The position numbers and the translations under genes are program-made. Positions 1-33,844 of a stretch of DNA of 64,000 nucleotides are shown in pieces. Origin of the DNA: Niveispirillum irakense DSM 11586 (GTDB lineage: Bacteria; Pseudomonadota; Alphaproteobacteria; Azospirillales; Azospirillaceae); assembly GCF_000429645.1 (NCBI RefSeq), contig NZ_AUCG01000023.1:248001-312000 (forward strand), in the 5' to 3' direction. The notes under the pieces are model-generated. The model had not been told where the DNA came from and made no database searches. It saw only the letters and a list, made by a program, of their open reading frames with translations. Each line of letters starts with the position of its first letter. Positions within the stretch are counted from its first letter, which is position 1.

Positions 1-1
1 C

Positions 2-5217: not shown

Positions 5218-6126
5218 ATGCTGAGCTATGATTATGTGCCGATGCCCAAGCGCGGCCCGCTGCGCTGGCCCGATGGCAAGAAGGTCGCGCTGATCCTGAC
5301 CTTCAACCTGGAAACCTGGGACCTGACCAAGGACACGGACAAGCCATACTATGCCGGCGGTCCGGCCATCCTGCCCGATGTGCTGCCCGGCGACACGCCC
5401 GACTTCCCCAATTTCACCTGGCGTGAATATGGCCAGCGCGTCGGCATCTGGCGGCTGTATGACCTGTTCGATGAAATGGGCGTGAAGGCAAGCTGCACCA
5501 CCAACGCCGTCACGTTTGAACGCCGCAAGGCGATGGTCGATGCCTGCCTGGAGCGCGGCTGGGAGTTGCTGGCCCATAATTACGAACAGGGCGAGCTGCT
5601 GACCAATTTCGCCAAGGACCCGGTGAAGGAACGCGATGTCATCCTGCGTTCCATTGAAATGTATGAGCGACATGTCGGCCGCCGCCCGGTGGGCTGGCTG
5701 TCTTCATCGCTCCGGGGCACGTTGAACACGGCGGGCATCCTGGCTGAACAGGGCTTCCTGTTCTATTGCGACATCATGAATGATGATCAGCCCTATCCTT
5801 TGCAGACGGAAAACGGGCCTTTGCTCTCGGTGCCCTATTCCAACGAGATCAATGATTTCACGCTGCTGACCCGCCGTAACCTGACCACCGATGCTTTCCG
5901 CGATACCTTGATCGAGGAATTGTCGGTGTTGCGCCAGGAAGGGGCGAAAACCGCCAAGCTGATGAATGTGGGCCTGCACCCCCATGTCACCGGGCGCGCC
6001 TACCGTATCCGCGGCCTGCGCGAGTTCCTGGAATATGCGAAGAGCCTGGACGATGTCTGGTGGCCAACGCGTGAGGAATTGGCCCGCTGGTATCTGGCCA
6101 ACAGTGAAGGCCATATACCGGCGTAA
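5218..6126 (+). CDS. Polysaccharide deacetylase-family protein, PuuE (allantoinase)-like
   Basis: A 302-residue NodB-fold hydrolase of the PuuE branch rather than a carbohydrate deacetylase. Matches to that branch include KVALILTFNLETWD at the N-terminus, WELLAHNYEQGE in the place of the metal-binding histidine motif, RRPVGWLSSSLRGTLNT, a FYCDIMNDDQPYP segment followed by a PYSNEINDF segment, and MNVGLHPHVTGRAYRIRGL near the end. PuuE-type enzymes hydrolyse C-N bonds in cyclic ureides or related ring compounds in the cytoplasm. There is no signal peptide. The gene is coupled to the previous one (three-base gap, GGAGG inside the upstream gene) and is last in the operon, followed by a terminator. 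The exact substrate is unknown. Confidence 0.85.
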   Translation: MLSYDYVPMPKRGPLRWPDGKKVALILTFNLETWDLTKDTDKPYYAGGPAILPDVLPGDTPDFPNFTWREYGQRVGIWRLYDLFDEMGVKASCTTNAVTFERRKAMVDACLERGWELLAHNYEQGELLTNFAKDPVKERDVILRSIEMYERHVGRRPVGWLSSSLRGTLNTAGILAEQGFLFYCDIMNDDQPYPLQTENGPLLSVPYSNEINDFTLLTRRNLTTDAFRDTLIEELSVLRQEGAKTAKLMNVGLHPHVTGRAYRIRGLREFLEYAKSLDDVWWPTREELARWYLANSEGHIPA

Positions 6127-8115: not shown

Positions 8116-9492
8116 TCAAGGCGCCACCCCCGCCGGTTTGGCAAAAGCCGGGCTCCGCCCGCCTAAGGTATAGAACCAGATGAAACCGGCATTGCACAGG
8201 AACAGCAGTGTCGGGATCAATACATAACCCGCATAAAGAGCGGTGATGGCACTATCAGGCTGTTGAACCAGCGCCCCGTTGCGGGTGGGTACATATTGCG
8301 CCATGTTCAGCAGAATGCCGACCAGGGCAACGCCGATAGCGAAGGCCGCCTTCTCGATCACTGCCATGATGCTGGACAGCAGCCCTTCGCGACGCAGGCC
8401 TGTCAGGTGGCGGTCATGGGCCAGGGCGTCGGCCAGCATGGATATGGATAGCAGGATCATACCGCCAGCGCCGATGCCGGCACCGATCCCACGCAGGATC
8501 AGGCCCGTCACACTGACGCCGCCAGGGCCGACCAGCAGCCAGCTCAACGCTGCCAGGGACATCAGGGCGATGCCGATCAGATAAGCGTTGCGCTTGCCCA
8601 TCCGCCGTTCCATCCACAGCCAGCCCGGCATGGACAGACCACAGGCAATATTCTGGGCCAGAGCAAGCTGAACCTGCCCGGCATAGCCGAGATTAAGCAC
8701 ATTCAGCATGAAAAGCAGGCTGGTGGTGGCAAGGCTTGCAAAGGCCAGAAACTGGCAGACCTTGGCCGCCATCAGCAGGCAGAAGGGCCGGTTTTTCAGC
8801 ACGGTCTTCCAGTCACCGCCCTGCAACGGTGCGACATGGGCAGGGTCCACGCCCACCACCGGCGCCCTGGCCGTGCCGAAGAAGGACAAGATCATGGTGG
8901 TGCCGATCACCAGCGCGATCACCCAGCCCATCACCATATAGCCTTCCGCCCCGCCCCCGCTGCGGGAGATCAGTGCCGCCGTGCCCGCCATGGCCAGGAT
9001 CTGCCCTAGTGAGACAAAGATTGTCCGGAAGGACAACAGGCGCGACCGTTCATAGGGCGAGGCCGTCATTTCCGATGGCATCGCCATATAGGGCACGTTG
9101 AACAGGGAATAGCCGGTGGAATAGATGATCAATGCCAGCAGCATATAGATCATCAGCGCCGTGTCCCCCATCTCCGGTGCTGTGAAGATCATCAGGAAGG
9201 AGAGGGCGGAAACCAATCCACCCGCCAGCAGGAAAGGCCGGCGGCGGCCCCAGCGGCTGCGGGTCCGGTCGCTCATCATGCCGATGACGATATCGGCAAA
9301 GGCGTCATAGAGCTTGGAGGCCATCAGCAGATAGCCGGCCAGTTCCGTGCTTTTACCCAGCACTGTCGACATATAGGCCGGGAAATAGGCGGTGACGGCA
9401 TTCAGCATGATCGACACGCCGATGGTGCCGACACCGAAGCCCAGACAGACCTTCAAGGGCAGGCGATCATGACCCGCGTCACTGCTGCTCAT
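8116..9492 (-). CDS. GPH-type (MelB-like) MFS transporter
   Basis: A 458-residue inner-membrane carrier with about 12 hydrophobic helices. The N-terminal sequence (LPLKVCLGFGVGTIGVSIM, then LAGYLLMASKLYDAFADIVIG and MMSDRTRSRWGRRRPFLL) is the signature of the glycoside-pentoside-hexuronide:cation symporter group, which imports sugars, glucuronides or other organic acids with Na+ or H+. It is the last gene of a seven-gene operon, overlapping the upstream hydrolase gene by four bases (ATGA). Its position suggests that it brings the pathway substrate across the inner membrane after TonB-dependent uptake. The substrate is not deducible from sequence. It is convergent with the GxGYxYP gene, with 38 bases between the stops. 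Confidence 0.9.
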   Translation of the reverse strand: MSSSDAGHDRLPLKVCLGFGVGTIGVSIMLNAVTAYFPAYMSTVLGKSTELAGYLLMASKLYDAFADIVIGMMSDRTRSRWGRRRPFLLAGGLVSALSFLMIFTAPEMGDTALMIYMLLALIIYSTGYSLFNVPYMAMPSEMTASPYERSRLLSFRTIFVSLGQILAMAGTAALISRSGGGAEGYMVMGWVIALVIGTTMILSFFGTARAPVVGVDPAHVAPLQGGDWKTVLKNRPFCLLMAAKVCQFLAFASLATTSLLFMLNVLNLGYAGQVQLALAQNIACGLSMPGWLWMERRMGKRNAYLIGIALMSLAALSWLLVGPGGVSVTGLILRGIGAGIGAGGMILLSISMLADALAHDRHLTGLRREGLLSSIMAVIEKAAFAIGVALVGILLNMAQYVPTRNGALVQQPDSAITALYAGYVLIPTLLFLCNAGFIWFYTLGGRSPAFAKPAGVAP

Positions 9493-10337
9493 GCGCCGGT
9501 TCCTTCCAGGAAGGCGATGATGGCCTTGGCCTTGCTGTCCGGGTCCGGCCCGACGGCGGCGACATGGCCTTGTTTCAGCCGGGCGGCCGCGTCATCCACG
9601 GCGGCGTTCAGCACCGCCAGTTCGCGTTCCGCCTTCAGCAACAGAACCGGGCAGGTGATCTGCGCCATCCGCTCCAGCGGCCGGTAACGGAAAGCGGCCA
9701 GGTAGGGCAGGGCGTAGCTGTCCAATGCCTTCAGCACATCCAGGGCGGCATCGTGCAGCACGCGGGCCGGCGGCATGTGGCCGGGCAGGCGATGTTCCGG
9801 ATCGCGCATGAAATGCGGGAAATACAGCGCCTGATCACGGATGAAATGGAAGGCCCAAAGGAACTGCGCGCCGTAATCGTCCGGCTCTTTGGTGGGCGCG
9901 TAATGGGCCAGGATCGACTGGCGCGTCTCCTCGTCATATTCCTTGATCCCGTCCAGAACCGCATGACGTACCCGGCCCGGTGCCATGGCTGCCAGTTCAC
10001 AGGCCGTGCGGGCGCCGGTATGGCTGCCATAGACATCGAACTCCCCGATCCCCATGGCATCGGCCAGACGCAGGATGCTGTCGGCAAAATAGGGAATGTC
10101 CGGGTCCGCGACGGCTGGAACGGGGGAATCCCCGTTGCCCAGCGTGTCGGGCGCGATCACGTTGCGCCCGGACGGCGCGATGCCCCGCATCAGCGGTTCC
10201 ATCCAGCGCGAGGAGGTGGGCGAGGCATGGAGCAGGAAAAGCGGCGGCTTGGCCGCATTCTCCACCATGATCTGGCGCAGATGCACCTGCCCCTCGGCGA
10301 TGCGCACAAAGGCGCGGTCGATGGTCATGTTTGTCAT
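9489..10337 (-). CDS. Alpha/beta hydrolase with histidine at the nucleophile elbow
   Basis: A 282-residue cytoplasmic alpha/beta-hydrolase. The oxyanion segment is FLLHASPTSSRWMEP at about 34-48, and the strand-elbow-helix motif is VYGSHTGA with G104-S105-H106-T107-G108. The third position of a canonical G-x-S-x-G elbow is the nucleophile; here it is His106, not Ser, Cys or Asp. Other landmarks (PVLLLKAERE and the C-terminal region) are conventional. The related hydrolase at 14868 has the same feature, so it is unlikely to be a sequence error. It overlaps both neighbours by four bases within the operon. Either catalysis uses another residue, or the fold serves another reaction such as a non-hydrolytic lyase. 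Confidence 0.88.
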   Translation of the reverse strand: MTNMTIDRAFVRIAEGQVHLRQIMVENAAKPPLFLLHASPTSSRWMEPLMRGIAPSGRNVIAPDTLGNGDSPVPAVADPDIPYFADSILRLADAMGIGEFDVYGSHTGARTACELAAMAPGRVRHAVLDGIKEYDEETRQSILAHYAPTKEPDDYGAQFLWAFHFIRDQALYFPHFMRDPEHRLPGHMPPARVLHDAALDVLKALDSYALPYLAAFRYRPLERMAQITCPVLLLKAERELAVLNAAVDDAAARLKQGHVAAVGPDPDSKAKAIIAFLEGTGA

Positions 10338-11620
10338 GCCCCGGCCCCCACTGCCAGATGATCGCGCAATGTCGTGCCCTGATACTGCCGGCGCAGCAGG
10401 CCGCGCGCCTGCAGCAGCGGCACCACATGGGCGCAGAACAGTTCCAGTTCCGTCGGCATATATCCGGGCTGCAGGGTGAAGCCATCACAGGCCCCGGCAT
10501 CAATCCAGGTCTCCATCCGGTCAGCTAACTGGTCCGGCGTGCCGACGAAGATGGCATGCCCACGCGGTTTGCGGGCATAGGCACGGCAGAAATCGGCAAT
10601 GCTCTGCCCGCTCTCGGCTGCTGGTGCCAGCATGCGGCGCACATCGCCGGCCGGGAATTCACATTCAGCGCAGATCTGTTCCAGGGGGAAGGGGCCTTCG
10701 GCCGGATGCCGGGTCAGATCATAGCCGATGGATTCACTCAGATACTCAATACACAGCCCGTCATCGGCCAGTTCCAGCATCAGCGCATGCTTGCGCTGTG
10801 CCTCCTCCTCCGTGCTGCCCAGGATGAAGGCGAGACCGGGCATGATCAGGATGCCATCCGGATCACGCCCAAAACCGCGTGCCCGTTCACGGATATCGTC
10901 ACGATAATCGCGACCGGCCTCTATCGTCGGGGCCGGGCAGAAAATGGCTTCCGCCGTTTGCGCGGCGAAATTGCGCCCATCGGGCGACTGGCCTGCCTGC
11001 ACCAGTACGGGCCGGTATTGCGGCGCGGTGGGGAAATCCAGTGTGCCGTCAATATCGAACCAGCGGTTATGCAGACCGGCCTGACGATGTGGATCATCCA
11101 TGCCCGCCGCATCGCGCCAGAACACTTCCGCTGCATCTACGAAAGCCTTGGCCCGGTCATAGCGCAGGGATTTTTCCAGCAGGTCCGGAGCACCGAAATT
11201 CCAGGGCGAATTGGGATGGACCGTGGTGACGATGTTCCAGCCGGCACGGCCCTGGCTGACCATGTTCAGGGCTGCAAACTTTGCCGCCACCTCCGCCGGC
11301 TCATTATAGGTGGTGGAAACGGTGGCAACCAACCCGACATGCCGGGTTACCCCCGCCATCACCGACAGCAGGGTGAACGGGTCAAGGGTCGGGATAGCCA
11401 GCCGGCTTGGTGTACGGCCAGCGGCATCGCGCCCCTGCAACTGGTCACCAAAGACAATGGCATCGAAACAGGCATCATCGACCAGCCGCGCGACATGCTC
11501 GTAATATTCACGCTGGAACACGGCGCGCGGCGAGGCATCGGGCGCGCGCCAGCCGCCGGGGAAAAAGCCGATACCCTGCAGAAAAGCCCAGAGATGCAAT
11601 CTACCATTCTCGCGTGACAT
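10334..11620 (-). CDS. FMN-dependent luciferase-like monooxygenase, NtaA/DszA family
   Basis: A 428-residue flavin monooxygenase of the bacterial luciferase superfamily, closest in pattern to nitrilotriacetate monooxygenase component A and DszA. Seen motifs are LHLWAFLQGIGFFPGGWR at the N-terminus, HVARLVDDACFDAIVFGDQL, TRHVGLVATVSTTYNEP, and GRAGWNIVTT with NFG downstream. PQYRPVLVQAGQSPDGRNFAAQ follows the usual RYFDVDG-type region. It needs reduced FMN from a separate reductase; none is recognised in the window. Members break C-N or C-S bonds by hydroxylation. It overlaps the downstream hydrolase by four bases and shares one base with the second luciferase-like gene, which implies stoichiometric expression. 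Confidence 0.93.
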   Translation of the reverse strand: MSRENGRLHLWAFLQGIGFFPGGWRAPDASPRAVFQREYYEHVARLVDDACFDAIVFGDQLQGRDAAGRTPSRLAIPTLDPFTLLSVMAGVTRHVGLVATVSTTYNEPAEVAAKFAALNMVSQGRAGWNIVTTVHPNSPWNFGAPDLLEKSLRYDRAKAFVDAAEVFWRDAAGMDDPHRQAGLHNRWFDIDGTLDFPTAPQYRPVLVQAGQSPDGRNFAAQTAEAIFCPAPTIEAGRDYRDDIRERARGFGRDPDGILIMPGLAFILGSTEEEAQRKHALMLELADDGLCIEYLSESIGYDLTRHPAEGPFPLEQICAECEFPAGDVRRMLAPAAESGQSIADFCRAYARKPRGHAIFVGTPDQLADRMETWIDAGACDGFTLQPGYMPTELELFCAHVVPLLQARGLLRRQYQGTTLRDHLAVGAGA

Positions 11621-12507
11621 CAGGCGGCACCCTTCTGCGAATGGGGGTTGATAGGACGGCGCAAGCCCAGACGCTCACGCGCGGTGGCACCGAGATAAGG
11701 CGGGGGAACGACCCAACTGCGGAGCGATTCCAGCATATCCAGCGCATTCGCCCCCATCAGGTGCAGTCCGTCGGCCTTACCGTCACGCACCAGCCCCAGG
11801 CTGGCATCCAGTGTTTCCACCGTCACCTTGACCAGCCGCACTGCACCCTTGTCGGCCTGTGCCAGCCGGTCGGGGCTGGCCAGCACCACATCCGCCGCCA
11901 CGCCGCTGTGCAGCAGGTCATCCAGATCGCGCAGCAGCAGGGGATAACCCTGCGGGGGACGGGCCGCGTTCAGTGGTCCCATCGTGGTGAAATAGGGGCC
12001 GCGATAATCGACACGGCGCACCTTGGCACTATCCAGATAGGCACCGCTTCCCGGATTGATGATCAGGGCATCCTGGTCCCAACTGTCCCACAGGGCGCGG
12101 GTGGCGCGGATGAAATCCGCGTACTTCGCCGGCTGTTCTGCGGACGCCAAGCGGTAGCCGGCACCATAGGCGTTATCAAAACGCTCTCCCCCTGCCAGCA
12201 GTGGCATCCAGGCGGCCCGCCCGGAAGAAAGGAAATCCGCTGCCGATAAGGCGCGCGCGATATGGAAGGGCACGGAATGCAATGCCGGGATGGCAGCGGC
12301 GACCACCGGCGTGACCAGCCGGCCGGTAATCCAGGGCAGTGTCACCACCGCTTCCACCCGCCCCGGTGCCAGTCGTCCTTTGGACAACTCCCGTGCCAGG
12401 ATGACGAAATCGGCCTTGGCCTTCTCGATCCGGTCGGTCTGCCGGACCAAACCGGCAAACCCATTCTTGTCCCCATCCGGGACATCAATGCTGATCGACA
12501 GATACAT
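11620..12507 (-). CDS. Short, divergent luciferase-like monooxygenase homologue
   Basis: A 295-residue relative of the preceding enzyme, about 130 residues shorter. It keeps FHIARALSAADFLSSGRAAW (family FxxARxxAxLDxLSxGRAGW), RALWDSWDQDALI, DYRGPYF and GPLNAARPPQGYPLLL, which fix the family. The conserved GRAGWNxVTS loop reads GRAAWMPLLAG, and the segment after PPQG is curtailed, so FMN binding is doubtful. It may be an inactive partner of the 428-residue enzyme, like a LuxB subunit, or a degenerate copy kept by chance. The ATG has a GAGGC box just upstream. The open reading frame is intact, and the close coupling with its neighbour argues for function. Confidence 0.8.
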   Translation of the reverse strand: MYLSISIDVPDGDKNGFAGLVRQTDRIEKAKADFVILARELSKGRLAPGRVEAVVTLPWITGRLVTPVVAAAIPALHSVPFHIARALSAADFLSSGRAAWMPLLAGGERFDNAYGAGYRLASAEQPAKYADFIRATRALWDSWDQDALIINPGSGAYLDSAKVRRVDYRGPYFTTMGPLNAARPPQGYPLLLRDLDDLLHSGVAADVVLASPDRLAQADKGAVRLVKVTVETLDASLGLVRDGKADGLHLMGANALDMLESLRSWVVPPPYLGATARERLGLRRPINPHSQKGAA

Positions 12508-12516
12508 GGGGATGCC

Positions 12517-13824
12517 TCAAATCGTGATGACATGTTTGCCCAAGGGGTGGATCGGCGCTGCGCCGTCGCGGGTAATCACCACCAGATCCTCGATATGGAC
12601 GGAGCCGCCGATACCGGTATCCAAGGAGGGGCAATCGACGCTGAGGATCATGTTCTCCTCCAGCAGCAGATCGTTCTTGCCGTAGAACCCGCCCCGCATT
12701 TCCCCCGGCTCGTCCGTGTGCATCAGCCCCACACTGTGAGGGCCGAACGTGACAAGGCCGGCGGCACCGGTTTTGCGCAATGTCTCCATCCCGATGCGGG
12801 TGACGTCAGAGAAGCGCAGGCCGGGGCGCAACTGATCGCGGATCGCCTTCCATCCCGCCTCCGCCGCCTGGGCAGCACGACGGGCGGCGGGATTCGGCTC
12901 TCCGACAAAGACGGTACGGGCATAATCACCATGGTAATGCTGAAAATGCCCGACCCCATCGAAGAACAGGGATTGTCCGTCGCGTACCCGGTCGTCGCCG
13001 GGCAAGTCGGAGGAGACGCGGTCGATGGTCATGAACACAGCGCGGTTGCCGCGTATCGCACTTTCCTGGGCGAACAGCGATCGCAGGTCGCGGTAGCTGG
13101 CACCGGCTCGCACCTTGCCGATGACGGCATTGACGGCCGCGGCATTGGCTTCGGCCCCCCGGCGCATCAATGCCAGTTCCAGCGGTGATTTCACCACCCG
13201 TATCCAGCGCAGCAGATTGTCCGCTGGGGTCAGGCGGCCGGGCCGTTGATGATGATCGCAGACCAGCCGCGTGATCTCGTGATCATAAGCGATACAGCCT
13301 TGCCACAGGCCCATGTCACGCAAGGCCCGGACCAGGGCGCCCCCAGCATCGGCGAAAATGGCGCGCTGTGCGATGGCGGTATCGGTTAGAATCTGCCGCC
13401 GCACTTCCACCCCCGACAGCGGGGCTGCACCCTTATCCGCAAAGAAGCCGGTAAAGGCGGGAACCTGCCGGACCTCCCCCCCATCACCGGCATCCTGGAA
13501 CAGGTAACTGGCCAACCACTCCCGGGGTCCGCCATCGGCGAAGGTGTAGTAATAGATAAAATGCGAAGTGACGATGGCCGGCGCCAGATCCGGGTTGCGG
13601 GACAGGATGGCGAAGCTGGTCGGTGGCTGCCCCTGCCGGGTGATGCCGATCTGTGGCCAATAGCCCAACAGATGGAACACGTTCAGCGGATCACCCAGTA
13701 CCAGACCATTCACCCCGAACCGGTCCATGACTTCATAGGCGCGGGGCAGGTTGATCGGCCCGCCCGCCCGCAACCCGGTGAACAGTTCCTCGTCATGCGC
13801 CTTCAGTGCGGCATGGTCATCCAT
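12517..13824 (-). CDS. M24 family metallopeptidase (creatinase/Xaa-Pro aminopeptidase-like)
   Basis: A 435-residue pita-bread-fold protein. An N-terminal creatinase-type domain (about 30-190) is followed by the catalytic domain. Metal-ligand positions appear as Asp289 (LFFDG), Asp300 (HGDYARTVFVG), a histidine near 363 (FGPHSVGLMH) and Glu412 (HIEDLVVI). The position usually occupied by Glu in the FxxEP motif is Asp397 (LSVDCPS). Members remove N-terminal residues before proline, or cleave C-N bonds in small molecules such as creatine. The N-terminal domain and operon context favour a small-molecule role, but that is inference. The next gene downstream starts nine bases after this stop. Confidence 0.87.
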   Translation of the reverse strand: MDDHAALKAHDEELFTGLRAGGPINLPRAYEVMDRFGVNGLVLGDPLNVFHLLGYWPQIGITRQGQPPTSFAILSRNPDLAPAIVTSHFIYYYTFADGGPREWLASYLFQDAGDGGEVRQVPAFTGFFADKGAAPLSGVEVRRQILTDTAIAQRAIFADAGGALVRALRDMGLWQGCIAYDHEITRLVCDHHQRPGRLTPADNLLRWIRVVKSPLELALMRRGAEANAAAVNAVIGKVRAGASYRDLRSLFAQESAIRGNRAVFMTIDRVSSDLPGDDRVRDGQSLFFDGVGHFQHYHGDYARTVFVGEPNPAARRAAQAAEAGWKAIRDQLRPGLRFSDVTRIGMETLRKTGAAGLVTFGPHSVGLMHTDEPGEMRGGFYGKNDLLLEENMILSVDCPSLDTGIGGSVHIEDLVVITRDGAAPIHPLGKHVITI

Positions 13825-13851
13825 AGGCTAAGCTCCGGCGCATCGGGGGCG

Positions 13852-14871
13852 TTACAGCAGCCCCAGTGGACGGGCGCGCGACTTGATATAATCGCCCAGC
13901 CAATCCAGGTTACGGAAGCGCAGCGTGCCACGCCCGACGGCGGCAGAGGATTCCGCCATGCCGGCAAGAAGGCGGAAGGCCTTGGTCATCAAGAATAATT
14001 CGCCATGACGCTTTTCATCGTCGGTGAAGGGGCGCACGCTTTCATAGCCACGCTCAAACGCCGTGCCGTAATCCGGGGAGAAGCCATAGAACAGGTTGCC
14101 CCAGACGAAATTCTTCACGTCTTGCATCAGGTAATCTTCACCCGTGCCATCAAAATCCAGCAGGGTGATGCGACCGGTTTCGTCGACATGGACATTGCTG
14201 GAATGGAAATCGCAATGGCAGATGCCCATCGGCACATTCTCTGCCCTTATATCCATCAGGCGCTGCGCCAGCCTTTCACAGATGATGGCATAGTCACGCA
14301 AGTCGTCCGGCCGGTCATATACGAAGTCCAGCAGGGCTGGCACCGTCACCTTGAAACGAACGACATTATCCATGGCGAAGGGGCGGTCACCCTGATAATC
14401 GAGCCCGTGCAGATGCATCCGCGCAAACTGGGCGCCGATCTTCTCCGCCATCGGGATGTCCATCTGGTCGGTGAATTTCTTGCCTGGCGCCCATTCGTAA
14501 AGGGCCAGGGCGCGCGGCCCTTCCGGGGAATCCAGCTTGAAGTAAAGCGCCCCATCCCTGGTGCGGACACCAGCAGAGGCGGGGAAACCCTGGCTGCGCA
14601 GATAATCCAGGAAATTCAGTTCGGTAGCGACCTCGTCCACGCCGCGATAGGTCTTCCGCCAGACGCGCAGGGCAAACCGTTCCTGTGATCCCTGAACCAG
14701 ATAGACATCGTTCATCCCGCGATAGAGCAGGAAGGCGGTGACCGGCCCCACGATGGGATAGCGCTTTGCCACCTCCGACGCCAGGAAGGCCGGTTCCATG
14801 ACCGAATGCGATATCCTGGCCATGGGCAGGATATCACTGGAAGGCGTGATGTGGGCGGGGGCGTTCATCAT
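13852..14871 (-). CDS. Aminoglycoside phosphotransferase-family small-molecule kinase
   Basis: A 339-residue APH/choline-kinase-fold kinase, of the homoserine-kinase-II-like type. The catalytic loop is H219-C-D221 with Asn226 (CHCDFHSSNV), and the second metal-binding Asp motif is LLDFDGTG at 237-244. An N-terminal lobe, with LRVWRK giving the ATP lysine region, precedes them. It transfers a phosphate from ATP to a hydroxyl of a small metabolite. In a catabolic operon the likely purpose is to trap or activate an imported substrate. A strong AGGAGC box lies six bases before the ATG. It overlaps the upstream hydrolase by four bases. There is nothing to indicate antibiotic resistance. Confidence 0.87.
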   Translation of the reverse strand: MMNAPAHITPSSDILPMARISHSVMEPAFLASEVAKRYPIVGPVTAFLLYRGMNDVYLVQGSQERFALRVWRKTYRGVDEVATELNFLDYLRSQGFPASAGVRTRDGALYFKLDSPEGPRALALYEWAPGKKFTDQMDIPMAEKIGAQFARMHLHGLDYQGDRPFAMDNVVRFKVTVPALLDFVYDRPDDLRDYAIICERLAQRLMDIRAENVPMGICHCDFHSSNVHVDETGRITLLDFDGTGEDYLMQDVKNFVWGNLFYGFSPDYGTAFERGYESVRPFTDDEKRHGELFLMTKAFRLLAGMAESSAAVGRGTLRFRNLDWLGDYIKSRARPLGLL

Positions 14872-15719
14872 AGGCTCCTGGAAACGGGCAGATCAAAAAA
14901 GTCGCGCAGATGGGCAGCGATGCCTGCAACGGCATCAGGAAGGTCGAAAATGTCCCGGTTGAAATCCGGCATTTCGACAATGCGATGGTTCGGGATCAGG
15001 TGCGCCGCTGCGACGGATTGGCGCCAGATATCCTCGTGCGGCTGCAACAGCAATGTTGGCTGGTTCAGAAGCGGCAGGCGGTTTTCATATTCGAAACCCC
15101 AGACACCGAGATAGGCCCAGTGCATATGGTCAAGCGCTGCCAGCTTGTCGTACCAGGCCCGCGCCGCATGGGAAAGGCCAACCCCGGCTGTCCGCACCTT
15201 GACCACATAATCCCAAAGGGCCTTGGCTGTGGCGAGAATATGCGTGCCATCCTCATCAAGGCCGGGAGTTTCCTGGGCTTGTCGCAACCGTTCCGCCCGT
15301 TCCTGCGGATCGCGCATGGGCAGCCCGGTCAAAGCGAGGTGCCGGATCAGGCCGGGGCGCAGCAAGGCCGCTTCAACCGCCACCAAAGCGCCGGTGTGGA
15401 AACCATAGACATCGCAGCCCATCGCCTCGTTCACGCCCAGGTCGGGCAAGGTGCGCACAAGTTGTTCCGCGTAACCTTTGATGCCAAGCGGCGCCTGGGG
15501 CGGGTCGGACTGCCCGTAACCCGGCATGTCCAACGCGATCACCAGACGGTCGTATCCCATCACCCGCATCAACCCTTCATATTCAAGGGAGGAGGCGGGG
15601 TTCTGGTGGAACAGGACCAGGGGCCGTTTTGCCCCGATTCCATCAGCCGGGCCCGCCCGGCGATAATGGATCTGCCGGCCGGGCCCCCCGATATAAGCGC
15701 GGAAAATGGGCACGGTCAT
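14868..15719 (-). CDS. Alpha/beta hydrolase with GFHTG elbow
   Basis: A 283-residue alpha/beta-hydrolase, paralogue of the one at 9489. The oxyanion segment is LVLFHQNPASSLEYEG, DMPGYGQSDPP marks the family strand, and the elbow is VYGFHTGA with His108 where Ser is normal. Repetition of the same change in two proteins of one operon suggests a functional subfamily. I place the start at 15719 because AAGG lies upstream and MTVPIFRAYIGG fits the fold; a longer in-frame start at 15800 has no ribosome site. It is the first of seven overlapping genes and lies 149 bases downstream of the TonB receptor, so both may share one transcript. Confidence 0.86.
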   Translation of the reverse strand: MTVPIFRAYIGGPGRQIHYRRAGPADGIGAKRPLVLFHQNPASSLEYEGLMRVMGYDRLVIALDMPGYGQSDPPQAPLGIKGYAEQLVRTLPDLGVNEAMGCDVYGFHTGALVAVEAALLRPGLIRHLALTGLPMRDPQERAERLRQAQETPGLDEDGTHILATAKALWDYVVKVRTAGVGLSHAARAWYDKLAALDHMHWAYLGVWGFEYENRLPLLNQPTLLLQPHEDIWRQSVAAAHLIPNHRIVEMPDFNRDIFDLPDAVAGIAAHLRDFFDLPVSRSL

Positions 15720-15821
15720 GGACGGTTTGCCTTCAGGGATTGACACGCCACAAGGCGGGGTAAGGGAAAAAGGGCGGATGGCCACCGAGGGGAAAGCCAC
15801 CCGCCAGAAGGTGAGAGGGAA

Positions 15822-15850
15822 GGGCGGCCCTGAAACACGGGGAGCCGCCC
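15822..15850 (-). terminator. Weak hairpin after the TonB receptor
   Basis: GGGCGGC at 15822-15828 and GCCGCCC at 15844-15850 form a seven-base stem with a 15-base loop. On the minus strand only TTCCCTCT follows, so termination would be partial. It may attenuate, rather than stop, transcription from the receptor into the hydrolase operon. Confidence 0.35.
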
Positions 15851-15868
15851 GCCTCCCGACCGGGAGCG

Positions 15869-18418
15869 TTAGAAGCTGTATTTCATCTGCAAACCCATGG
15901 TGCGCCGTTCGGGAAGACCGACAACCAGGGCAGACAGATAGGTCGTGTAAGCAAAATTGTTGGTGAAGACGAACTGGTCGTTAATCGAGGTGTAGCGCTG
16001 GGTATCGAACAGATTGTTGACGAACAGATCGATCGATACCGGCCCCTGGCTGGCGCCCATCCGCACATTCACCATATGCAGATCGGGCGTTTTCACCACA
16101 TTGGCCGCATTCGACCAGACGCCGGATTTGAAGCTGTAATCAGCGCGGGCAAACCATGCCCCATCGAAGGATTCCCCGAAATCGCCGCTATATTGCAGGC
16201 CGGCGCTGGCGGAATATTTCGACGTATTCGGCATCTCCTTGCCGCTGAAATCGAAGATACCGGTCAACTGGCTGACCTGGGCGGCGCGGTAATCCTTGAT
16301 CTTGGTGTCGGTGATGGCACCGGCAAAGTTCATCCGCACATTGCCCAGTAACTGGTAGTTGCCATCCAGTTCCAGACCTTTGATATCGACGCTGCCGCTA
16401 TTGATATAGCCGGTCACGATCTGCGCGGCATTGGTATCGGGATCGACCAGCGGGAAAGAGCTTTGGTTGATCTGGTTGCGCCACTGGGCGAAATAGCCAT
16501 CAAGGGCGAACTGCATACGGCCGTTGAACAACCGGCCTTTCATGCCGATTTCGTAATTGGTCACCTTTTCCGGTTCAATGCCGATCTGCAGGCCACCGGC
16601 CGCGGCAGCGCGCTGTGCGGCAGCGGTGGCGGTCAGGAAGCTGGTGTTGAACCGGGCCGGATTCACACCCTTGGCATAGGATGCGTAGACCATCACATCA
16701 TCGTTCAAGTCATACTGCGCGATGAAACGCGGCATGAAATTCTTGAAATCCTCGCTCAGCAGCAGGGAGCCACCGGGATAAAAGCCGGCTGGCAGGAAGA
16801 CGCTGGTCGTGGCCGTGTAGCCGGTCGGCTGGGCATAGGCGTAAAGCTTGTCAACCTGGTAGCGGCCTTCGGCGCTGAAGCTGAGATCGTCCAGCACCTG
16901 ATAGGTAATGCCATAAAAGGCACTGATCGTCCGGGACCGCGTCTTGCCATTGGCGTTGAAGAATACCGTCGTTCCAAGGGCGCCGTTACCACCGCCATTG
17001 CCGCTGATGGTCTCAGCATTCATATAATTGGCGCCGGTGATAAAGCGGAGCGCACCACCGCCATCATAGCCCAAGCGCAGTTCGTGGGAATAATCCTTGC
17101 TCTTGCGCTCGACCAGGAACGGATAATCGAAGTAACTGCGGGCACCGGCGGGAACGGAGCCAAAGCCATTATTGGCAATGGAGATATCGCCATAATTATC
17201 CAGATCGACCAGGGCGCTGTAGCGCTCATGGTTGGTGCCACCCAGATAGGAGACGGTGAAATCGGTATCCGGAATTTCGTAATCAGCCGTGATATGGCCA
17301 TGGGTATAGCGGCGCACCAGACCATATCCCTGCACACCATCAGAGGGGGAGATGAAGCGGTTCCGCGACTGAGCCAGGAAGTTCTTGATATAGCTGTCGT
17401 TAATGGAGGTCATCGACGGGCTTTGGCCGGGGATAAGCTTCGGTGCCGTACCGCAGAAGAACGGATTCATCCGCACCTGTCCCGCCCCCTGCACAGCGGA
17501 GGTGGAGCCGGTCAGGGTGCAGTTTGACTGACTTTGCAGAACGACCTGCCCATTGGCGTTCGTCACCGTATAGGCGGGGATGAAACCCTGCGCGGACGGG
17601 CCATCCTCATCTTCCGACAACAGGCCGAAGGCCTTGATGGTCAACCCTTCGATGGGCTTGGCGACCAGCAGCAAGGTGCCGCTGGTGGTTTCCTGGTCGC
17701 CCAGGGTTTCGCTGTTATTGAAGCCGTTCTTATAAGAACCATCCTTGGAGAAGCGGTTGCCACTGGCGCGGAAGGTCAGCTTATCCCCCAGGATCGGGCC
17801 TTCAACATCGGCACGGATGCGGTAATTATCGCGGGTGCCGATCATGCCGGTAACATTGCCGCCAAACTCGTCACCCGGTTCCTTGTTCACCACATTGACG
17901 GCACCGGCGAAGGTATTGCGGCCGAAATAGGCGCTCTGAGGCCCTTTCAAAACCTCGATCCGCGCCGGATCAGAGATATTGTTGACCGCCGTGGCCGACG
18001 CGACAGGCACGCCATCAATAAAAGTGGCGACCGTGGCCACATCAGGGGCAGACGGGCTGAAGCCGCGAATGATGATCTGCTGGAAGGAACGGTCGTTGCG
18101 GCCGGCCTGATTGTTGGAGACATTCACGCCGGGGGAGAAGGTGCCGATATCGGCGACGGATACGATGCCGCGCTGTTCGATCGCCTCGCTGGTCAGAACG
18201 CTGACAGCCACCGGGGTCTTCAGCATGTCTTCCGCACGCTTACGCGCGGTGACGATGATTTCCTCCAGCACAAAACTGTCACCGCCATCAGCCGACCCGC
18301 CGGCTGTCTGGCCCGATGCACCCCCGACAAGGCAGAGTGCAGTCGTCATGGCAATAAGGGAAACCGCACCGAAGCGCATACCCAAACCCGTAACAGGGTG
18401 AACTGCCCCAGTCCTCAT
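15869..18418 (-). CDS. TonB-dependent outer-membrane receptor
   Basis: An 849-residue receptor. A signal peptide covers about residues 1-40, LEEIIVTARKR is the TonB box, then comes the plug (RSFQQIIIRGFSPSAPDVATV, FIDGVPVASATAVN, LKGPQSAYFGRNTFAGAV) and a 22-strand barrel ending in aromatic MKYSF. Such receptors import scarce, large or poorly diffusing substrates using the proton motive force. AGGAGG lies seven bases before the ATG. It is upstream of, and co-directional with, the seven-gene hydrolase/monooxygenase operon. It resembles the receptor at 35839 in the plug and much of the barrel, so the two are paralogues. The 376-base region upstream carries operator-like repeats. The ligand is unknown. 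Confidence 0.95.
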   Translation of the reverse strand: MRTGAVHPVTGLGMRFGAVSLIAMTTALCLVGGASGQTAGGSADGGDSFVLEEIIVTARKRAEDMLKTPVAVSVLTSEAIEQRGIVSVADIGTFSPGVNVSNNQAGRNDRSFQQIIIRGFSPSAPDVATVATFIDGVPVASATAVNNISDPARIEVLKGPQSAYFGRNTFAGAVNVVNKEPGDEFGGNVTGMIGTRDNYRIRADVEGPILGDKLTFRASGNRFSKDGSYKNGFNNSETLGDQETTSGTLLLVAKPIEGLTIKAFGLLSEDEDGPSAQGFIPAYTVTNANGQVVLQSQSNCTLTGSTSAVQGAGQVRMNPFFCGTAPKLIPGQSPSMTSINDSYIKNFLAQSRNRFISPSDGVQGYGLVRRYTHGHITADYEIPDTDFTVSYLGGTNHERYSALVDLDNYGDISIANNGFGSVPAGARSYFDYPFLVERKSKDYSHELRLGYDGGGALRFITGANYMNAETISGNGGGNGALGTTVFFNANGKTRSRTISAFYGITYQVLDDLSFSAEGRYQVDKLYAYAQPTGYTATTSVFLPAGFYPGGSLLLSEDFKNFMPRFIAQYDLNDDVMVYASYAKGVNPARFNTSFLTATAAAQRAAAAGGLQIGIEPEKVTNYEIGMKGRLFNGRMQFALDGYFAQWRNQINQSSFPLVDPDTNAAQIVTGYINSGSVDIKGLELDGNYQLLGNVRMNFAGAITDTKIKDYRAAQVSQLTGIFDFSGKEMPNTSKYSASAGLQYSGDFGESFDGAWFARADYSFKSGVWSNAANVVKTPDLHMVNVRMGASQGPVSIDLFVNNLFDTQRYTSINDQFVFTNNFAYTTYLSALVVGLPERRTMGLQMKYSF

Positions 18419-18794: not shown

Positions 18795-19982
18795 TCAATG
18801 GGTGCTGGGATGTTTCACAGCGGAACACACGTACCAGCTTCCCAGCAGGGTACGGCCTTCCGGGTCACCCTCGGTGAAGAAGTCATCGCGATTGGCGTGG
18901 GCCTGCGCCACACCCTTGCGATAGCCGACCAGCACATCACCGGCATTGAAGCCGGCATCGACGGAGACTTTCACATAATCCACCCGGCTGAGGGCGGCCA
19001 TGAAGGGCTCGTTATTGTAATGGGCCTCAAAATCGCAGCGCATCTGCTCCCACAGGCCCAGATGCTCCTGCCGGGGCGGCACCTCGACATGCACCATGAT
19101 CCCGCCAGGCCGCAACAACCGGTGGCATTCGGCGAAGATGTTGCGCATGGCCTTGGCCGATGTTTCGTGCAGCAGCGCGGATGAGGTGATCAGGTCGAAA
19201 CTGCCATCGGCAAAATTGGTGCGCTCGGCATTCTGCTGGCTGAAATGGATAGTCTGGCCCATCGCTTCCGCCCGCGCATGCCCATAGCGGAGCATCGGTG
19301 CGCCGACATCAATGGCGTGGATTTCGGCGTTGGGGAAGGCTGCGGCAATGGCGCAGGTACTGTGCCCCACCGAACAGCCCAAATCCAGGATACGTTTTGG
19401 CGCGAAATCGGGGTGGAAGTCCTTGATATGCGCCACCAGGGTCTGGCCCCGCCCATCATTGCGCCAACCGCCATTCAGGTTGCGCAGATAGGTGGAAGCA
19501 AACCGATCATACAACGCCCCGGCCCGGAAATCCGTGTCGGCCGTATCGACATGGTAGCTGCCGGGCATACGATGATGGTCGAACGCTTCGATATAGCGCG
19601 GGATGGGCAGGGTAGGGTCCAGTGTCAGCGAACCACGTGGCGTCTGCGCCTGGCTGTCGATCGCGGCGGCCAGATCGGCATATTGCCGGTCTATGCTGGC
19701 ACCCAGGCTGCGCCAGATCTGATCCTGATAGAAAAAGCTGAGCGAGAGCCAATATTGGTGAAAAGGCTCCTCCTCCAGGGCGTCCCGCATCTGGGCGCTG
19801 GATTTCGGCTTGGTGCCGGTCCTGGCCTCGATCTCCGGCACGATCACCTCATTGACCAAACGCTTATCCAGCGGGTCGATATTCTGGATCGTCCAGAGCC
19901 GCATGGCCAGGAAGTGATCTTCCATCGCCTGTTCATCATGGGTGGCCTGGGGCATGACGGCATGCCCGAAATGTTCTGCCAT
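18795..19982 (-). CDS. SAM-dependent methyltransferase with extra N-terminal domain (copy 1)
   Basis: A 395-residue protein. The C-terminal half is a class I methyltransferase: motif I is RILDLGCSVGHST, motif II holds the acidic ribose ligand in AIDVGAPMLRYG, then FSQQNAERTNFADGSFDLI and LLRPGGIMVHVEV. Residues 1-190 are not a known methyltransferase part; they contain the block PRGSLTLDP, then P-YI, then H-MPG, which also occurs in the paralogue at 24780. It is expressed after a small coiled-coil-like gene, 27 bases upstream, an arrangement repeated in the other copy. It probably methylates a metabolite of the imported substrate; the acceptor is unknown. A good AAGGAG site precedes the ATG. 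Confidence 0.87.
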   Translation of the reverse strand: MAEHFGHAVMPQATHDEQAMEDHFLAMRLWTIQNIDPLDKRLVNEVIVPEIEARTGTKPKSSAQMRDALEEEPFHQYWLSLSFFYQDQIWRSLGASIDRQYADLAAAIDSQAQTPRGSLTLDPTLPIPRYIEAFDHHRMPGSYHVDTADTDFRAGALYDRFASTYLRNLNGGWRNDGRGQTLVAHIKDFHPDFAPKRILDLGCSVGHSTCAIAAAFPNAEIHAIDVGAPMLRYGHARAEAMGQTIHFSQQNAERTNFADGSFDLITSSALLHETSAKAMRNIFAECHRLLRPGGIMVHVEVPPRQEHLGLWEQMRCDFEAHYNNEPFMAALSRVDYVKVSVDAGFNAGDVLVGYRKGVAQAHANRDDFFTEGDPEGRTLLGSWYVCSAVKHPSTH

Positions 19983-20009: not shown

Positions 20010-20366
20010 TCAGTCGGTTGTCACGTCGGACAGCACGCCATCATAATCGCGCTGTTCCTTCAGGGCCGCCGGCAGCAGCTTGTCGCGCCCAACCCCCAGC
20101 ACCCGGTCGTACATCAGGTGTCGATAGACCGTGCGGTACTTCTTGGCGCCGGCATCGGGACGGTAATCATCCACGTCCGCCGGGCCATGGAGGCCGCGGG
20201 CAGCCAACAGCCTTTCATTGGCATCAAGCCGGTCGCGCAATACCGCCACCTCGCCCAGCAGCGCCAGCACCATGCCGGTCAATGCATCAGTGGTCGCGTC
20301 CTTGAAGATGACCGGCTGACTGCCGACCGAACGGCTGACCCGGTCCAGATTTTTTCTTGCCTGCAT
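20010..20366 (-). CDS. Small conserved protein paired with methyltransferase (copy 1)
   Basis: An acid/base-rich 118-residue protein I cannot assign to a named family. Residues about 35-60 (MVLALLGEVAVLRDRLDANE) form a strongly heptad-like helix, followed by RLLAARGLHGPADVDDYRPD and MYDR. The protein at 25928 has the same pattern: a helix with SEV-I-LR-RLDA-ERLL-A, then VD-F-PD and a downstream Met. Both are immediately upstream of a methyltransferase of the same unusual two-part type. A helical partner that assembles or docks the methyltransferase is a reasonable guess. No signal peptide or membrane segment is visible. GAGAGA lies near the start codon. Confidence 0.75.
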   Translation of the reverse strand: MQARKNLDRVSRSVGSQPVIFKDATTDALTGMVLALLGEVAVLRDRLDANERLLAARGLHGPADVDDYRPDAGAKKYRTVYRHLMYDRVLGVGRDKLLPAALKEQRDYDGVLSDVTTD

Positions 20367-20420: not shown

Positions 20421-21014
20421 CTATTTCGTTGCGGCGCTGTCAGGCACGCTGAAACGGATCAAGGTTCCGGTGCGTCGCTGGATATCCTTCTTATCCAGGT
20501 CCGGTCCGTTGGCTTCTTCCGTCAGCGCATCACGCTGGTGCAGGTCGTACCCGGTCTGGGTGGAGAGCAGCACGATCAGGTCGGTACCTTCCTCCAGCGC
20601 AAAAGGAAATTCGTGCCATGTTCCCAGATGCAGGGCGAAGCCGGCACTGCCATCGAACAGGAAAGCACGCACCTGCGTCAGATCCGGCATCTCGCCTTCC
20701 GACGGCGGCGCCATCACAGCGATGAAGGGCTTGCCACCCAGCGGAATGAAAGTTTGCGTATGTTGGAAATGCCGCTCCATATAGCGGACTTCCATGGGGC
20801 GCGGATCCACAGTTGCCAATGGCACGGCCACGGGATGTTCACAGGTGAACGCGACCGGGTAACGCATGGTGACGCGCCCCTTGTAGAAATCCACAGGCAC
20901 CGCCTTGGCACCGGCGGCACGGCCCAGGATATGACCGAAGGGGGCCAGGGCCTCCGGTGTGGCCGGCTCCACCGGCAGATCAAGAATGGCAACTACCGTC
21001 TTATCGTTGTCCAT
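20421..21014 (-). CDS. Ureidoglycolate lyase (AllA)-like protein
   Basis: A 197-residue cupin-like protein matching the ureidoglycolate lyase/hydrolase family. Landmarks are the N-terminal LAPFGHILG (AllA: FAPFGDVI), HFQHTQTFIPLGGKPFIAVMAPP, and HLGTWHEFPFAL in the place of the AllA GTWH motif. AllA splits ureidoglycolate into glyoxylate and urea. At 197 residues it is slightly longer than the usual 160-170, with extra C-terminal sequence (DKKDIQRRTGTLIRF). It lies between an MFS carrier and the small protein gene, with short gaps of 51 and 54 bases. It could be a catabolic lyase acting on a ureide-like or acyl product; allantoin catabolism genes are otherwise absent here. Confidence 0.82.
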   Translation of the reverse strand: MDNDKTVVAILDLPVEPATPEALAPFGHILGRAAGAKAVPVDFYKGRVTMRYPVAFTCEHPVAVPLATVDPRPMEVRYMERHFQHTQTFIPLGGKPFIAVMAPPSEGEMPDLTQVRAFLFDGSAGFALHLGTWHEFPFALEEGTDLIVLLSTQTGYDLHQRDALTEEANGPDLDKKDIQRRTGTLIRFSVPDSAATK

Positions 21015-21065: not shown

Positions 21066-22466
21066 TCATCGGTAGGGGCCGACACGCGCCCCTTCAGTCG
21101 CCATCATCAGGCTGGCGGCCTCCCCCTGTTCACGCCGCTGGCGCAGCATGGCCCGGCGGGACAGGGCGAACAGGGCGACACCGCAAAGCAGCGAGGGGAT
21201 CACCACCAGCATGATCGAATAGCCAACCATGGCCGGTTCGCCGAACAGGTGGTCGGTGGCAAGCGCGATCAACATCGGCCCCAGCGTGGCGCCGATCAAT
21301 GTGTTCACCAACCCGCTGAGCGCCACGGCACTGCCCCGCATGCCCGCTGGTACGATCGATTGGATCGTGGCGAAGGTCGTGGTGCCCAGCACGGCGAAGA
21401 CAGCGCTGCTGGAAGCCACCAGGAACATGGCGAAGACCGGACCTCCCGCCAGTACCGCCAGGGCGGAAGGGATGGCGATGAAGGGGGCCATGATCAGGAT
21501 GTTGAACTTCGCCATCGTCACGGAACGCCGGGCGAAATAATCAATCATGATGCCTCCGATCATCGGCCCCATGATGGAAAAGCCCATGGAGAAGGGACCA
21601 AGCCAGGTGCCGATCATGGCCGGCGTTGCCTCAAAGGCGCGGGTCAGCATGGCCGGCGCCCAGCCAGCAGCGCCATAGGCTGCCAGGAAGCAGAAAGCGA
21701 AACCGAGATAGAGCGGGGCGAAGACACCAATATTGCGGCGCAGAAACCCTATCTTTTCCGCGAGCGTAATGGTTTCCGTCTGACCATTCTGGCCGCCACG
21801 GGGCGGTTCCCGGGTCGACAGCATCAAGACGGAAACGAACAGACCCAGCAGGCCGCAGCCGATGAACGCGACACGCCAGGGCGCTGCACTTTCCAGATAA
21901 GGAATGCCCTGGAACCGGCCCTCTGCTGCGGCGGCCATGATAAAACTGGTCAGGGAAATGGCGAGCCCGTTTGCGACCGCCTGTCCAGTCAGGAACAGGC
22001 TGAGCGGTTTGCCCCGTTTATGCGGGGGGAAAAGATCCGCGATCAGGGATACTGCTGCCGGGCCCAATGCAGCTTCGCCCAACCCGACCAGCAGCCGCGA
22101 CAGGAACATCTCGCCGAAAGAGGAAGCGAAGCCACCGCCGACCGTGGCCAGGCTCCAGACCGTGATACCGACAGTGACCAGCATCCGGCGGGAAACACGG
22201 TCAGCCACCAGCCCCAGCGGAATGCCGACCGTTGCATAAAACAGCCCGAAGGCCAGACCCTGCAGCAGGCTGATCTGAAGATCAACCAGCCCCAGATCAT
22301 GGCGCATCGGATCGACAACGATATTGATGATCGCGCGATCAATAATGGAGACAATCGCCGCCAGGAACAGGATGGCAACCGTCCACCATGCTGACCTGGC
22401 AGTGGGATACCCGGTGGTGGCGGGGGAGGGGCCGGACGCCGTGTCACTTGTGATGCTGGCAACCAT
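21066..22466 (-). CDS. MFS transporter, Spinster-like
   Basis: A 466-residue inner-membrane protein with 12 hydrophobic segments. The first helix is TVAILFLAAIVSIIDRAIINIVVDP, the cytoplasmic loop motif is GLVADRVSRRMLV, and LVGLGEAALGPAAVSLIADLFPPHKRG is typical of the Spinster-like/organic anion MFS subfamily. I use the ATG at 22466; a GTG one codon upstream is also possible, and no good ribosome site is visible for either. It is the first gene of the small block carrier-AllA-like-small protein-methyltransferase and probably imports the same substrate family. The direction of transport and substrate cannot be read from sequence. Confidence 0.9.
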   Translation of the reverse strand: MVASITSDTASGPSPATTGYPTARSAWWTVAILFLAAIVSIIDRAIINIVVDPMRHDLGLVDLQISLLQGLAFGLFYATVGIPLGLVADRVSRRMLVTVGITVWSLATVGGGFASSFGEMFLSRLLVGLGEAALGPAAVSLIADLFPPHKRGKPLSLFLTGQAVANGLAISLTSFIMAAAAEGRFQGIPYLESAAPWRVAFIGCGLLGLFVSVLMLSTREPPRGGQNGQTETITLAEKIGFLRRNIGVFAPLYLGFAFCFLAAYGAAGWAPAMLTRAFEATPAMIGTWLGPFSMGFSIMGPMIGGIMIDYFARRSVTMAKFNILIMAPFIAIPSALAVLAGGPVFAMFLVASSSAVFAVLGTTTFATIQSIVPAGMRGSAVALSGLVNTLIGATLGPMLIALATDHLFGEPAMVGYSIMLVVIPSLLCGVALFALSRRAMLRQRREQGEAASLMMATEGARVGPYR

Positions 22467-22576
22467 CACATACCCACGGATGCATCTGGTGTCGCACGAT
22501 TTGCCATGACACCCACAGAGTCTATCCTGTTCATGAGATACCCGTCCTTTTTAAGGTGTTGTGCCTTGACCCTGTT

Positions 22577-23680: not shown

Positions 23681-23788
23681 TTCCCACCCGGGGCTGGAGG
23701 CATCGGACAAAGCGCTGCCTTTCCGGCACGCTATTGCGCGCCGGGGGACATAACGGATGGATACCGGTTCCCGGTGGGGAGAAGGGGA

Positions 23789-24775: not shown

Positions 24776-24779
24776 CAGA

Positions 24780-27252: not shown

Positions 27253-27412
27253 ACCCAGCCTCCTGACGTGCAAACTATTTCCTTACCAACCCATGATGAT
27301 CGCGGATAGCAGGGTAGCGTCCAGGATAAAATAGTCTGTCCACCAGATGGAGGGTCAATGTAAAAGACGGTAAATATGCTTGTAGGGAAAAGGCTTACCC
27401 TTAAGCGCGCAT

Positions 27413-27444
27413 AAAAAACCCCACCCCGCAATAGCGGGATGGGG
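27413..27444 (-). terminator. Intrinsic terminator after TonB receptor 2
   Basis: On the minus strand the stem runs from 27444 to 27434 and 27429 to 27419 (11 bases with one mismatch, loop of four), with a T6 run (A-run at 27413-27418 on the plus strand) right after. It lies 37 bases beyond the receptor stop. Confidence 0.85.
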
Positions 27445-27480
27445 TGCGGCGAACGTGTTTTTGGAACACGGAAAGGAAGG

Positions 27481-29688: not shown

Positions 29689-29729
29689 GGAAATGCAGTC
29701 CTTGTCGATCAGGGTACAATACCGGCCGG

Positions 29730-31487: not shown

Positions 31488-31528
31488 AACGCGCAGTTGC
31501 CCTATCGAATTATTCAAGGGGATTGGTC

Positions 31529-33820: not shown

Positions 33821-33844
33821 GCTGTTCTGCTGTGCTGATCAAAG

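Follow-up and report, generated by a model that had tools for sequence, protein, structure and literature searches.

Several described systems share parts with the gene set reported here, which lies in a stretch of 64,000 nucleotides from Niveispirillum irakense DSM 11586 (the window; contig NZ_AUCG01000023.1, positions 248,001 to 312,000). The nicotinate/maleamate route of the nic pathway and the dimethylmaleate branch of nicotinate fermentation are matched in or beside the window by a flavin adenine dinucleotide (FAD) monooxygenase, an isochorismatase-type amidase, a member of the racemase family that resembles maleate isomerase, a LeuCD-like hydratase and an alkylmalate-lyase-like protein, and the Rut pyrimidine pathway is matched by luciferase-like monooxygenase (LLM), isochorismatase-family and alpha/beta-hydrolase proteins; the alkylmalate-lyase chemistry of the petal death protein, the imide hydrolases of the PuuE family and the chlorophyll catabolites of plants provide further background. 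In streptoseomycin-type biosynthesis, the adjoining genes of the pairs NtfO1-NtfO2 and StmO1-StmO2 encode a long luciferase-like flavin mononucleotide (FMN) subunit and a shorter partner that evolves fast; the two subunits are reported to assemble as a heterodimer, with less similarity among O1 proteins than among O2 proteins (PMC8027225). The window carries a pair of similar build, E/F, placed instead in a proteobacterial, catabolic-looking cluster. This cluster, here called the cassette, is a genuine, conserved and rare gene set kept in soil- and plant-associated bacteria, and we judge from its sequence, with slightly better than even confidence, that it forms a peripheral catabolic module in a larger island for the breakdown of a nitrogen (N)-heterocyclic natural product.

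Gene content, order and distribution of the cassette

An earlier note on this DNA had proposed a receptor and seven tightly coupled genes as one operon for uptake and degradation. Positions 8116-18418 hold eight open reading frames (ORFs), A to H, all on the minus strand, and the families guessed for all eight were borne out by Pfam and TIGRFAM profiles. They encode a TonB-dependent receptor (A, 15869..18418; PF07715/PF00593), an alpha/beta-hydrolase with His at the nucleophile position (B, 14868..15719; GFHTG, by family profile and ortholog alignment), an APH-type small-molecule kinase (C, 13852..14871; PF01636), an M24 (pita-bread) metalloenzyme (D, 12517..13824; PF00557), a short luciferase-like protein of 295 amino acids (aa) with a weak Bac_luciferase match (E, 11620..12507), an NtaA/DmoA-type FMN-dependent monooxygenase (F, 10334..11620; TIGR03860, above cut-off), a second alpha/beta-hydrolase with His at the nucleophile position (G, 9489..10337; GSHTG, by family profile and alignment) and a GPH-type (MFS_2) inner-membrane carrier (H, 8116..9492; PF13347, and 213.9 bits against TIGR00792, below its cut-off of 231.35). 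Four-base overlaps, which the note had ascribed to most junctions, occur by coordinates at three of the seven (H/G, G/F and C/B); F and E overlap by one base, and gaps of 9 and 27 bases separate E from D and D from C. The first codon of the B ORF is a GTG at 15800, 68 bases from A; an ATG at 15719, 149 bases from A, is the position where most orthologs align and probably the true start.

The ordered set recurs where the note had suggested looking for it. Orthologs of E (at least 67% identity) were found in 6 of 82 family genomes, the window's own included (some E match occurs in 22/82), and B-H keep the same order and orientation in all five of the others; carriers in the family include Azospirillum sp. 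RU38E, Nitrospirillum amazonense, N. iridis and Azospirillum sp. B4. Identity in these relatives is 80-84% for C and 67-70% for E (34-48% outside the family); H is split in two in locus L034, as A is in L037. A scan for D in a collection of 84,980 genomes gave 23 loci, of which four belong to the family genomes just described and two, in Croceicoccus gelatinilyticus and Sphingomonas sp. Leaf20, read B-C-X4-D-E-F-G-H, with a further carrier gene, X4, inserted between C and D; the remaining 17 hold distant D relatives (27-45%), with no E or F match in the stretches fetched. A plasmid search found D at 52-53% in six Novosphingobium records. In the five that were fetched the order is rearranged relative to the window: D-E-F stand together, followed by the upstream gene X5, and G-H stand together (5/5 each), E is present at 34-38% (5/5, by tblastn), and B-C-X4 stand together in 4/5, the stretch fetched from KACC 22771 showing no such block. 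In Novosphingobium THN1 ~50 kb separates the two halves of the cassette, and both C and H are split in two there. The recurrence of the order in Croceicoccus, Sphingomonas and, rearranged, Novosphingobium is more than chance would give.

A sample of the class (385 genomes, 384 besides the window's own) gave no ortholog-grade match; weaker matches appeared for E in five genomes and for D in four, with at most 6 (E) and 4 (D) candidates scored per genome, and since these E matches sit in open frames of 445-578 aa we take them for single-chain relatives and not orthologs. This rare and patchy distribution suggests that the history of the cassette may include transfer. A separate observation concerns a marine-type alphaproteobacterial metagenome-assembled genome (L069), in which D-, B- and X1-like genes stand together and where, by eye, blocks of a His-type hydrolase, an M24 protein, a ~225-aa protein of unknown type and a transporter-binding protein are repeated.

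The boundary drawn in the earlier note proved too small: co-conserved genes run on along the minus strand up to 26263, and by their co-conservation in relatives X8 to X1 belong to the conserved unit. X1-X5 lie upstream in four of the five family relatives, and X6-X8 in the three for which the fetched stretch extends far enough. X1 (18795..19982) encodes a class I S-adenosylmethionine (SAM) methyltransferase-like protein with an extra N-terminal region (PF13649 among others; 84-88% in 4/5 relatives) and is paired with a small protein, X2 (20010..20366; 70-79% in 4/5). X3 (20421..21014) belongs to the ureidoglycolate-lyase (AllA) family (PF04115 at 76.4 bits, above the gathering score of 23; PDB 2bdr, 8e-15), and X4 (21066..22469; PF07690) is the MFS carrier that stands inside the core in Croceicoccus and Sphingomonas. 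X5 (22685..23710) and X6 (23789..24895) are alpha/beta-hydrolases (both PF00561) with, by eye, an N-terminal hydrophobic stretch and a signal-like N-terminus, respectively. X7 (24780..25931) is a paralog of X1 (81-86% in the three relatives reached, 71% in Sphingomonas Leaf20) and is again paired with a small protein, X8 (25928..26263; 70-76% in three relatives), the upstream limit of the conserved block. A regulator gene at 26419-27273 was considered as a further member and set aside, having no relative within 5.4-6.8 kb upstream of X8 in 3/3 genomes. At the other end, a GxGYxYP-type putative glycoside hydrolase gene (6476-8077) converges on H, 38 bases apart, and has no relative in the compared loci.

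Predicted enzymes and their nearest relatives

F scored 374.6 bits against TIGR03860 (cut-off 279.7), and E scored 97.2 bits, below the cut-off and over residues 77-192 only. The closest solved relatives of E are 7e36_A (4e-24) and then 3sdo, a nitrilotriacetate (NTA) monooxygenase (5e-22); those of F are 7e36_B (7e-69) and then DszA (8e-67). We take 7e36 chain B to be NtfO2, since its residues 56, 58, 101, 133, 151, 155, 203 and 222 match those given for NtfO2 in PMC8027225. Among these eight FMN-site residues five are kept in F by eye on the alignment (T101, T133, Y155, Q203, F222), E diverges faster than F, as that source reports for O1 relative to O2, and, again by eye, F has the motif W-N-x-x-T where E has W-M-P-L-L, which makes F the likely FMN subunit. 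We regard a heterodimer as likely, with F the probable catalytic subunit and E its probable partner. Some points weigh against this assignment: F differs from NtfO2 at H151, F56 and A58 (by eye), the genes scanned included none recognisable as a flavin reductase, and the matches to 3sdo and DszA are almost as good, which leaves the heterodimer likely and not proven. An assignment of the set to the Rut pathway was rejected on bit scores (F, 43.5 vs. the RutA cut-off of 498.3; the isochorismatase-family protein, 44.7 vs. 377.95 for RutB; G, 21.5 vs. 238.5 for RutD).

The note's two serine-less hydrolases stood up to alignment: the nucleophile elbow carries His instead of Ser in 12/12 aligned B/G proteins and in 19/19 when relatives are added. 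B and G thus lack the classical Ser (or Cys/Asp) nucleophile, and on inspection by eye neither keeps the catalytic His expected towards the end of the protein. A structural model of G (predicted local distance difference test score, pLDDT, 89.8) gave fold-level matches only.

In D, the positions that we take to be metal ligands, assigned from the general M24 pattern, are filled throughout: D289, D300, H363 and E412 in 23/23 aligned proteins, and D397 in 21/23, with Glu in the other two (25 relatives were listed; L058, L061 and L068 were left out). Metal chemistry is therefore likely, so that D is probably a metalloenzyme, though not necessarily a peptidase; C-N hydrolysis is possible. The D model (pLDDT 87.8) lies nearest to prolidases and then to DoeA, DddP and creatinase, all as fold-level matches only. 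D has the pita-bread fold in common with these last three, which are non-peptidase M24 proteins, and likewise the five ligand positions for metal, one of which differs in being Asp in 21 of the 23 aligned proteins (Glu in two). Identity of D with the ectoine hydrolase DoeA (52 bits vs. 575, and 42.4 vs. 613) or with the dimethylsulfoniopropionate (DMSP) enzyme DddP (18.7 bits vs. 600) was rejected.

The closest solved relative of C is the amicoumacin kinase 6sui (4e-13), so that E, F and C all have their nearest solved relatives in antibiotic biology (StmO/NtfO-type hydroxylases and amicoumacin kinase). With the two methyltransferases, which are hard to fit into catabolism and make a biosynthetic or detoxifying role for the cluster possible, this favours a cluster that makes or modifies a natural product, with the receptor and MFS proteins for uptake and export, the kinase for self-protection, and the methyltransferases and monooxygenase for tailoring. 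We consider that explanation improbable, as the ~40 window ORFs scanned with Pfam (part of all those in the window) include no nonribosomal peptide synthetase (NRPS), polyketide synthase (PKS) or other synthase, and breakdown is instead suggested by several hydrolases, a pair of inner-membrane carriers and neighbouring genes of catabolic type.

The receptor and its junction with the enzymes

The receptor proved less firmly attached than the earlier note had it. A stands directly upstream of B on the same strand in four of the five family relatives (identity 83% in L033 and 67-69% in L035-L037); in the exception, L034, other receptors stand on the opposite strand (52-54% paralogs of A), and in L051 and L052 no receptor adjoins B on B's strand. 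The A-B gap contains a terminator-like hairpin (15805-15773 on the minus strand; 13 pairs with a T5 tail), within which the GTG start of B would fall. At the same place Azospirillum sp. RU38E, the nearest relative, has a 13-pair stem with T6, its stem letters partly different, and in L035, L036 and L037 the gap has hairpins with a weak or absent T tract. Folding of the A-B gap beats shuffled sequence in three loci (z -2.7, -2.9 and -2.7); the hairpin finder, our own script with loops of at most 14 bases, itself carries no shuffle control, and in 10 other gaps it returned a hairpin with T in two. The stronger of these follows another receptor gene (27481-29865); at 27418-27445, between that receptor and an IclR-type gene, lies a strong terminator-like hairpin. 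Matches to promoter and terminator consensus sequences were hardly more frequent than in shuffled sequence (12 vs. 7.7 ± 2.6; 22 vs. 15.6 ± 4.0).

Because the hairpin separates the receptor from the enzymes, a single eight-gene transcript is not assured; A may have a transcript of its own or be subject to attenuation. Transcripts broken between receptor and hydrolase, with unrelated regulation, are among the things that the earlier note had named as speaking against its proposal, and this predicted terminator bears on that point. Of its single unit, the order B-H stands and a firm tie of the receptor to the core is not supported; of its catabolic system with entry, transport and breakdown, the families and neighbours fit catabolism. 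An uptake-plus-degradation role is still likely, and a hairpin that may uncouple receptor from enzymes weighs against it.

The receptor also bears on another reading, in which a molecule resembling a siderophore or antibiotic is detoxified or recycled by the set and not used as a source of carbon or nitrogen. A TonB receptor, an APH kinase near amicoumacin kinase and a Fes/feruloyl-type esterase (34577-35755) would suit such a function, which we nevertheless hold to be very improbable: A scores 150.8 bits against the siderophore-receptor model TIGR01783, below the cut-off of 223.5, and so many enzymes are not needed for one-step resistance.

Neighbouring genes, candidate substrate and related clusters

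To the left of the cassette, the window opens with the 3' end of a PrpB/2-alkylmalate-lyase-like gene (1..343, +; L114:2484-3344; TIGR02317), which is preceded, outside the window, by leuC/leuD-like genes and whose product belongs to its superfamily by matches to PDB 1zlp and 3fa3. The left plus-strand operon holds Y1, Y4, Y5 and Y6. Y1 (459..1256, +) is by eye an IclR-type regulator of this operon (71% on two Novosphingobium plasmids); Y4 (3234..4427, +; PF01494) is a FAD monooxygenase present at 63% or more in all six cassette genomes and at 60-62% on the Novosphingobium plasmids L073, L077 and L079; Y5 (4456..5214, +; PF17645) belongs to the Asp/Glu racemase/arylmalonate decarboxylase family (65-66% on two plasmids, L077 and L079); and Y6 (5218..6126, +; PDB 3cl6, 7e-34) is a PuuE-like protein of the polysaccharide-deacetylase family and a candidate cyclic-imide hydrolase (76% on L078 and L079). 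The stretch from one further Novosphingobium plasmid (L072) has no Y4, Y5 or Y6. To the right, on the minus strand, lies an isochorismatase-family protein and candidate half-amidase (33845..34483; PF00857; 55-58% on L072 and L078, 56% in Sphingomonas Leaf20), and the right part of the window also holds an HMGL-type lyase (39198-40094). The left operon looks like a substituted-maleimide lower pathway and is probably the downstream pathway of the cassette. Relative to the nicotinate pathway, the island adds the PuuE-like hydrolase, the AllA-like protein, the M24 protein, the kinase and the LLM pair, and no NicX-type dioxygenase was recognised among the scanned proteins.

Orthologs of Y6 occur in 13 of the 82 family genomes, including all six with the cassette. 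The hypergeometric p is 4.9e-6 when the genera are pooled, 0.029 for genus g11 by itself and 0.65 for g1. In g11, four of seven genomes have both Y6 and the cassette and three have neither, and several Novosphingobium plasmids have Y genes beside D-E-F or within ~20 kb. These data speak for a functional link, and our confidence in a tie to N-heterocycle or maleimide breakdown is moderate. Several results count against it. The pooled value ignores relatedness and is therefore inflated, and the test is uninformative within g1; Y6 is present in seven family genomes without the cassette and is thus not specific to it; five family relatives (G075, G060, G062, G063 and G064) carry cassette and Y genes on separate contigs; and the family assignments fall short of named functions, Y6 scoring 143.2 bits where the allantoinase PuuE model (TIGR03212) asks 424.6, the PrpB-like protein 255.2 where the prpB equivalog (TIGR02317) asks 354.4, and Y5 falling below the curated cut-off of its nearest named family. 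The cassette might on these grounds degrade something unlinked to a maleimide-type lower pathway, the operons being chance neighbours or co-regulated only; with the pattern in g11 and on the plasmids in view, we think this possible and on balance unlikely.

If the favoured catabolic reading is right, a route can be proposed, in which gene content, order conservation, conserved residues and co-occurrence are what we observed, and the reactions, the kind of substrate and the way in which material flows are all inferred. A would carry the compound across the outer membrane, the exported-looking X5 and X6 may trim it, and the carriers X4 and H would move it into the cytoplasm, where F, with its non-catalytic partner E, would oxidise or open the ring; B, G, D, C, X3, X1/X2 and X7/X8 would then process the pieces. 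These would enter a lower pathway of Y4, Y6, the isochorismatase-type half-amidase, Y5, the LeuCD-like hydratase and the PrpB-like lyase, in which a substituted maleimide would be hydrolysed first as an imide and then as a half-amide, hydrated and split by the lyase to give central metabolites. The earlier note could match the set to no standard pathway, and we likewise found no matching pathway in the open-access literature searched (PMC8027225 and PMC10653915 among it). Conserved in two families and on large plasmids, and unnamed in that literature, the set marks a pathway worth assay. It unites three odd parts: a probable heterodimeric LLM away from antibiotic biosynthesis, a pair of proteins of alpha/beta-hydrolase fold in which a conserved His takes the place of the nucleophile, and methyltransferase/small-protein pairs in a catabolic setting. 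With the substrate named, many genes now called 'hypothetical' in sphingomonads and their relatives could be annotated.

One bolder version, to which we give very little credence, is that the island mineralises linear tetrapyrroles or other pyrrolic pigments (bilins, plant chlorophyll catabolites, prodiginines). A would then import the pigment, E/F and the His-type hydrolases would cut it into pyrrole-derived pieces, and these would end as dialkylmaleimides that undergo imide and half-amide hydrolysis, hydration and alkylmalate cleavage. Were this true, B and G would represent undescribed alpha/beta-hydrolase-fold chemistry, with His replacing the nucleophile, and the question of how bacteria mineralise pyrrolic pigments would be opened.

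Related combinations of genes occur elsewhere. By annotation or blast, Sphingomonas pJE1 and Sphingobium pTomTYG65b (the Sphingobium TomTYG65 locus, L080, was compared by annotation only) share with the island a methyltransferase plus small protein (pJE1), a G-like hydrolase, two PuuE-like proteins, an isochorismatase, an HMG-CoA-lyase family protein, LeuCD, a CoA transferase, a TonB receptor and an MFS protein; the pJE1 stretch searched (L071) gave no D, E, F or C match. On these two plasmids and an Antarctobacter plasmid, relatives of X1, X8 or G stand beside imide- or hydantoin-type enzymes. Together with the L069 locus, they suggest a broader group of pathways for N-compounds in which His-type hydrolases and methyltransferases may take part. 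At L071:25479-27067 (pJE1) an X1-type methyltransferase adjoins a small protein, and at L075:16078-17996 (Antarctobacter plasmid) one immediately precedes a gene for a G-like hydrolase. Sphingobium sp. TomTYG65 also raised the thought of a link to steroidal glycoalkaloids, which was dropped, as the literature consulted names glycosidases and steroid enzymes and not the cassette genes.

Within the window, 31412-38337 holds a GH3 glycosidase, the feruloyl/Fes-type esterase mentioned above and another TonB receptor; similar GH3, esterase and receptor genes stand together in N. amazonense (L113), and this may be a different peripheral module. To the left of the window, G000:C7:164000-193000 (L101-L103) carries a second cluster much like that of pJE1, with a PuuE-like protein, an isochorismatase, G-like proteins of 555 and 565 aa, a TonB receptor, an MFS protein, an HMGL-type lyase and a CoA transferase; L103:4525-8040, tried as a HyuAB oxoprolinase, is a SNF2-type helicase instead. 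The same contig also shows, by eye, type VI secretion-like genes (L101; G000:C7:148001-162000) and an adhesin-like open frame of 5654 aa (L104:15-16979; G000:C7 ~208-225 kb).

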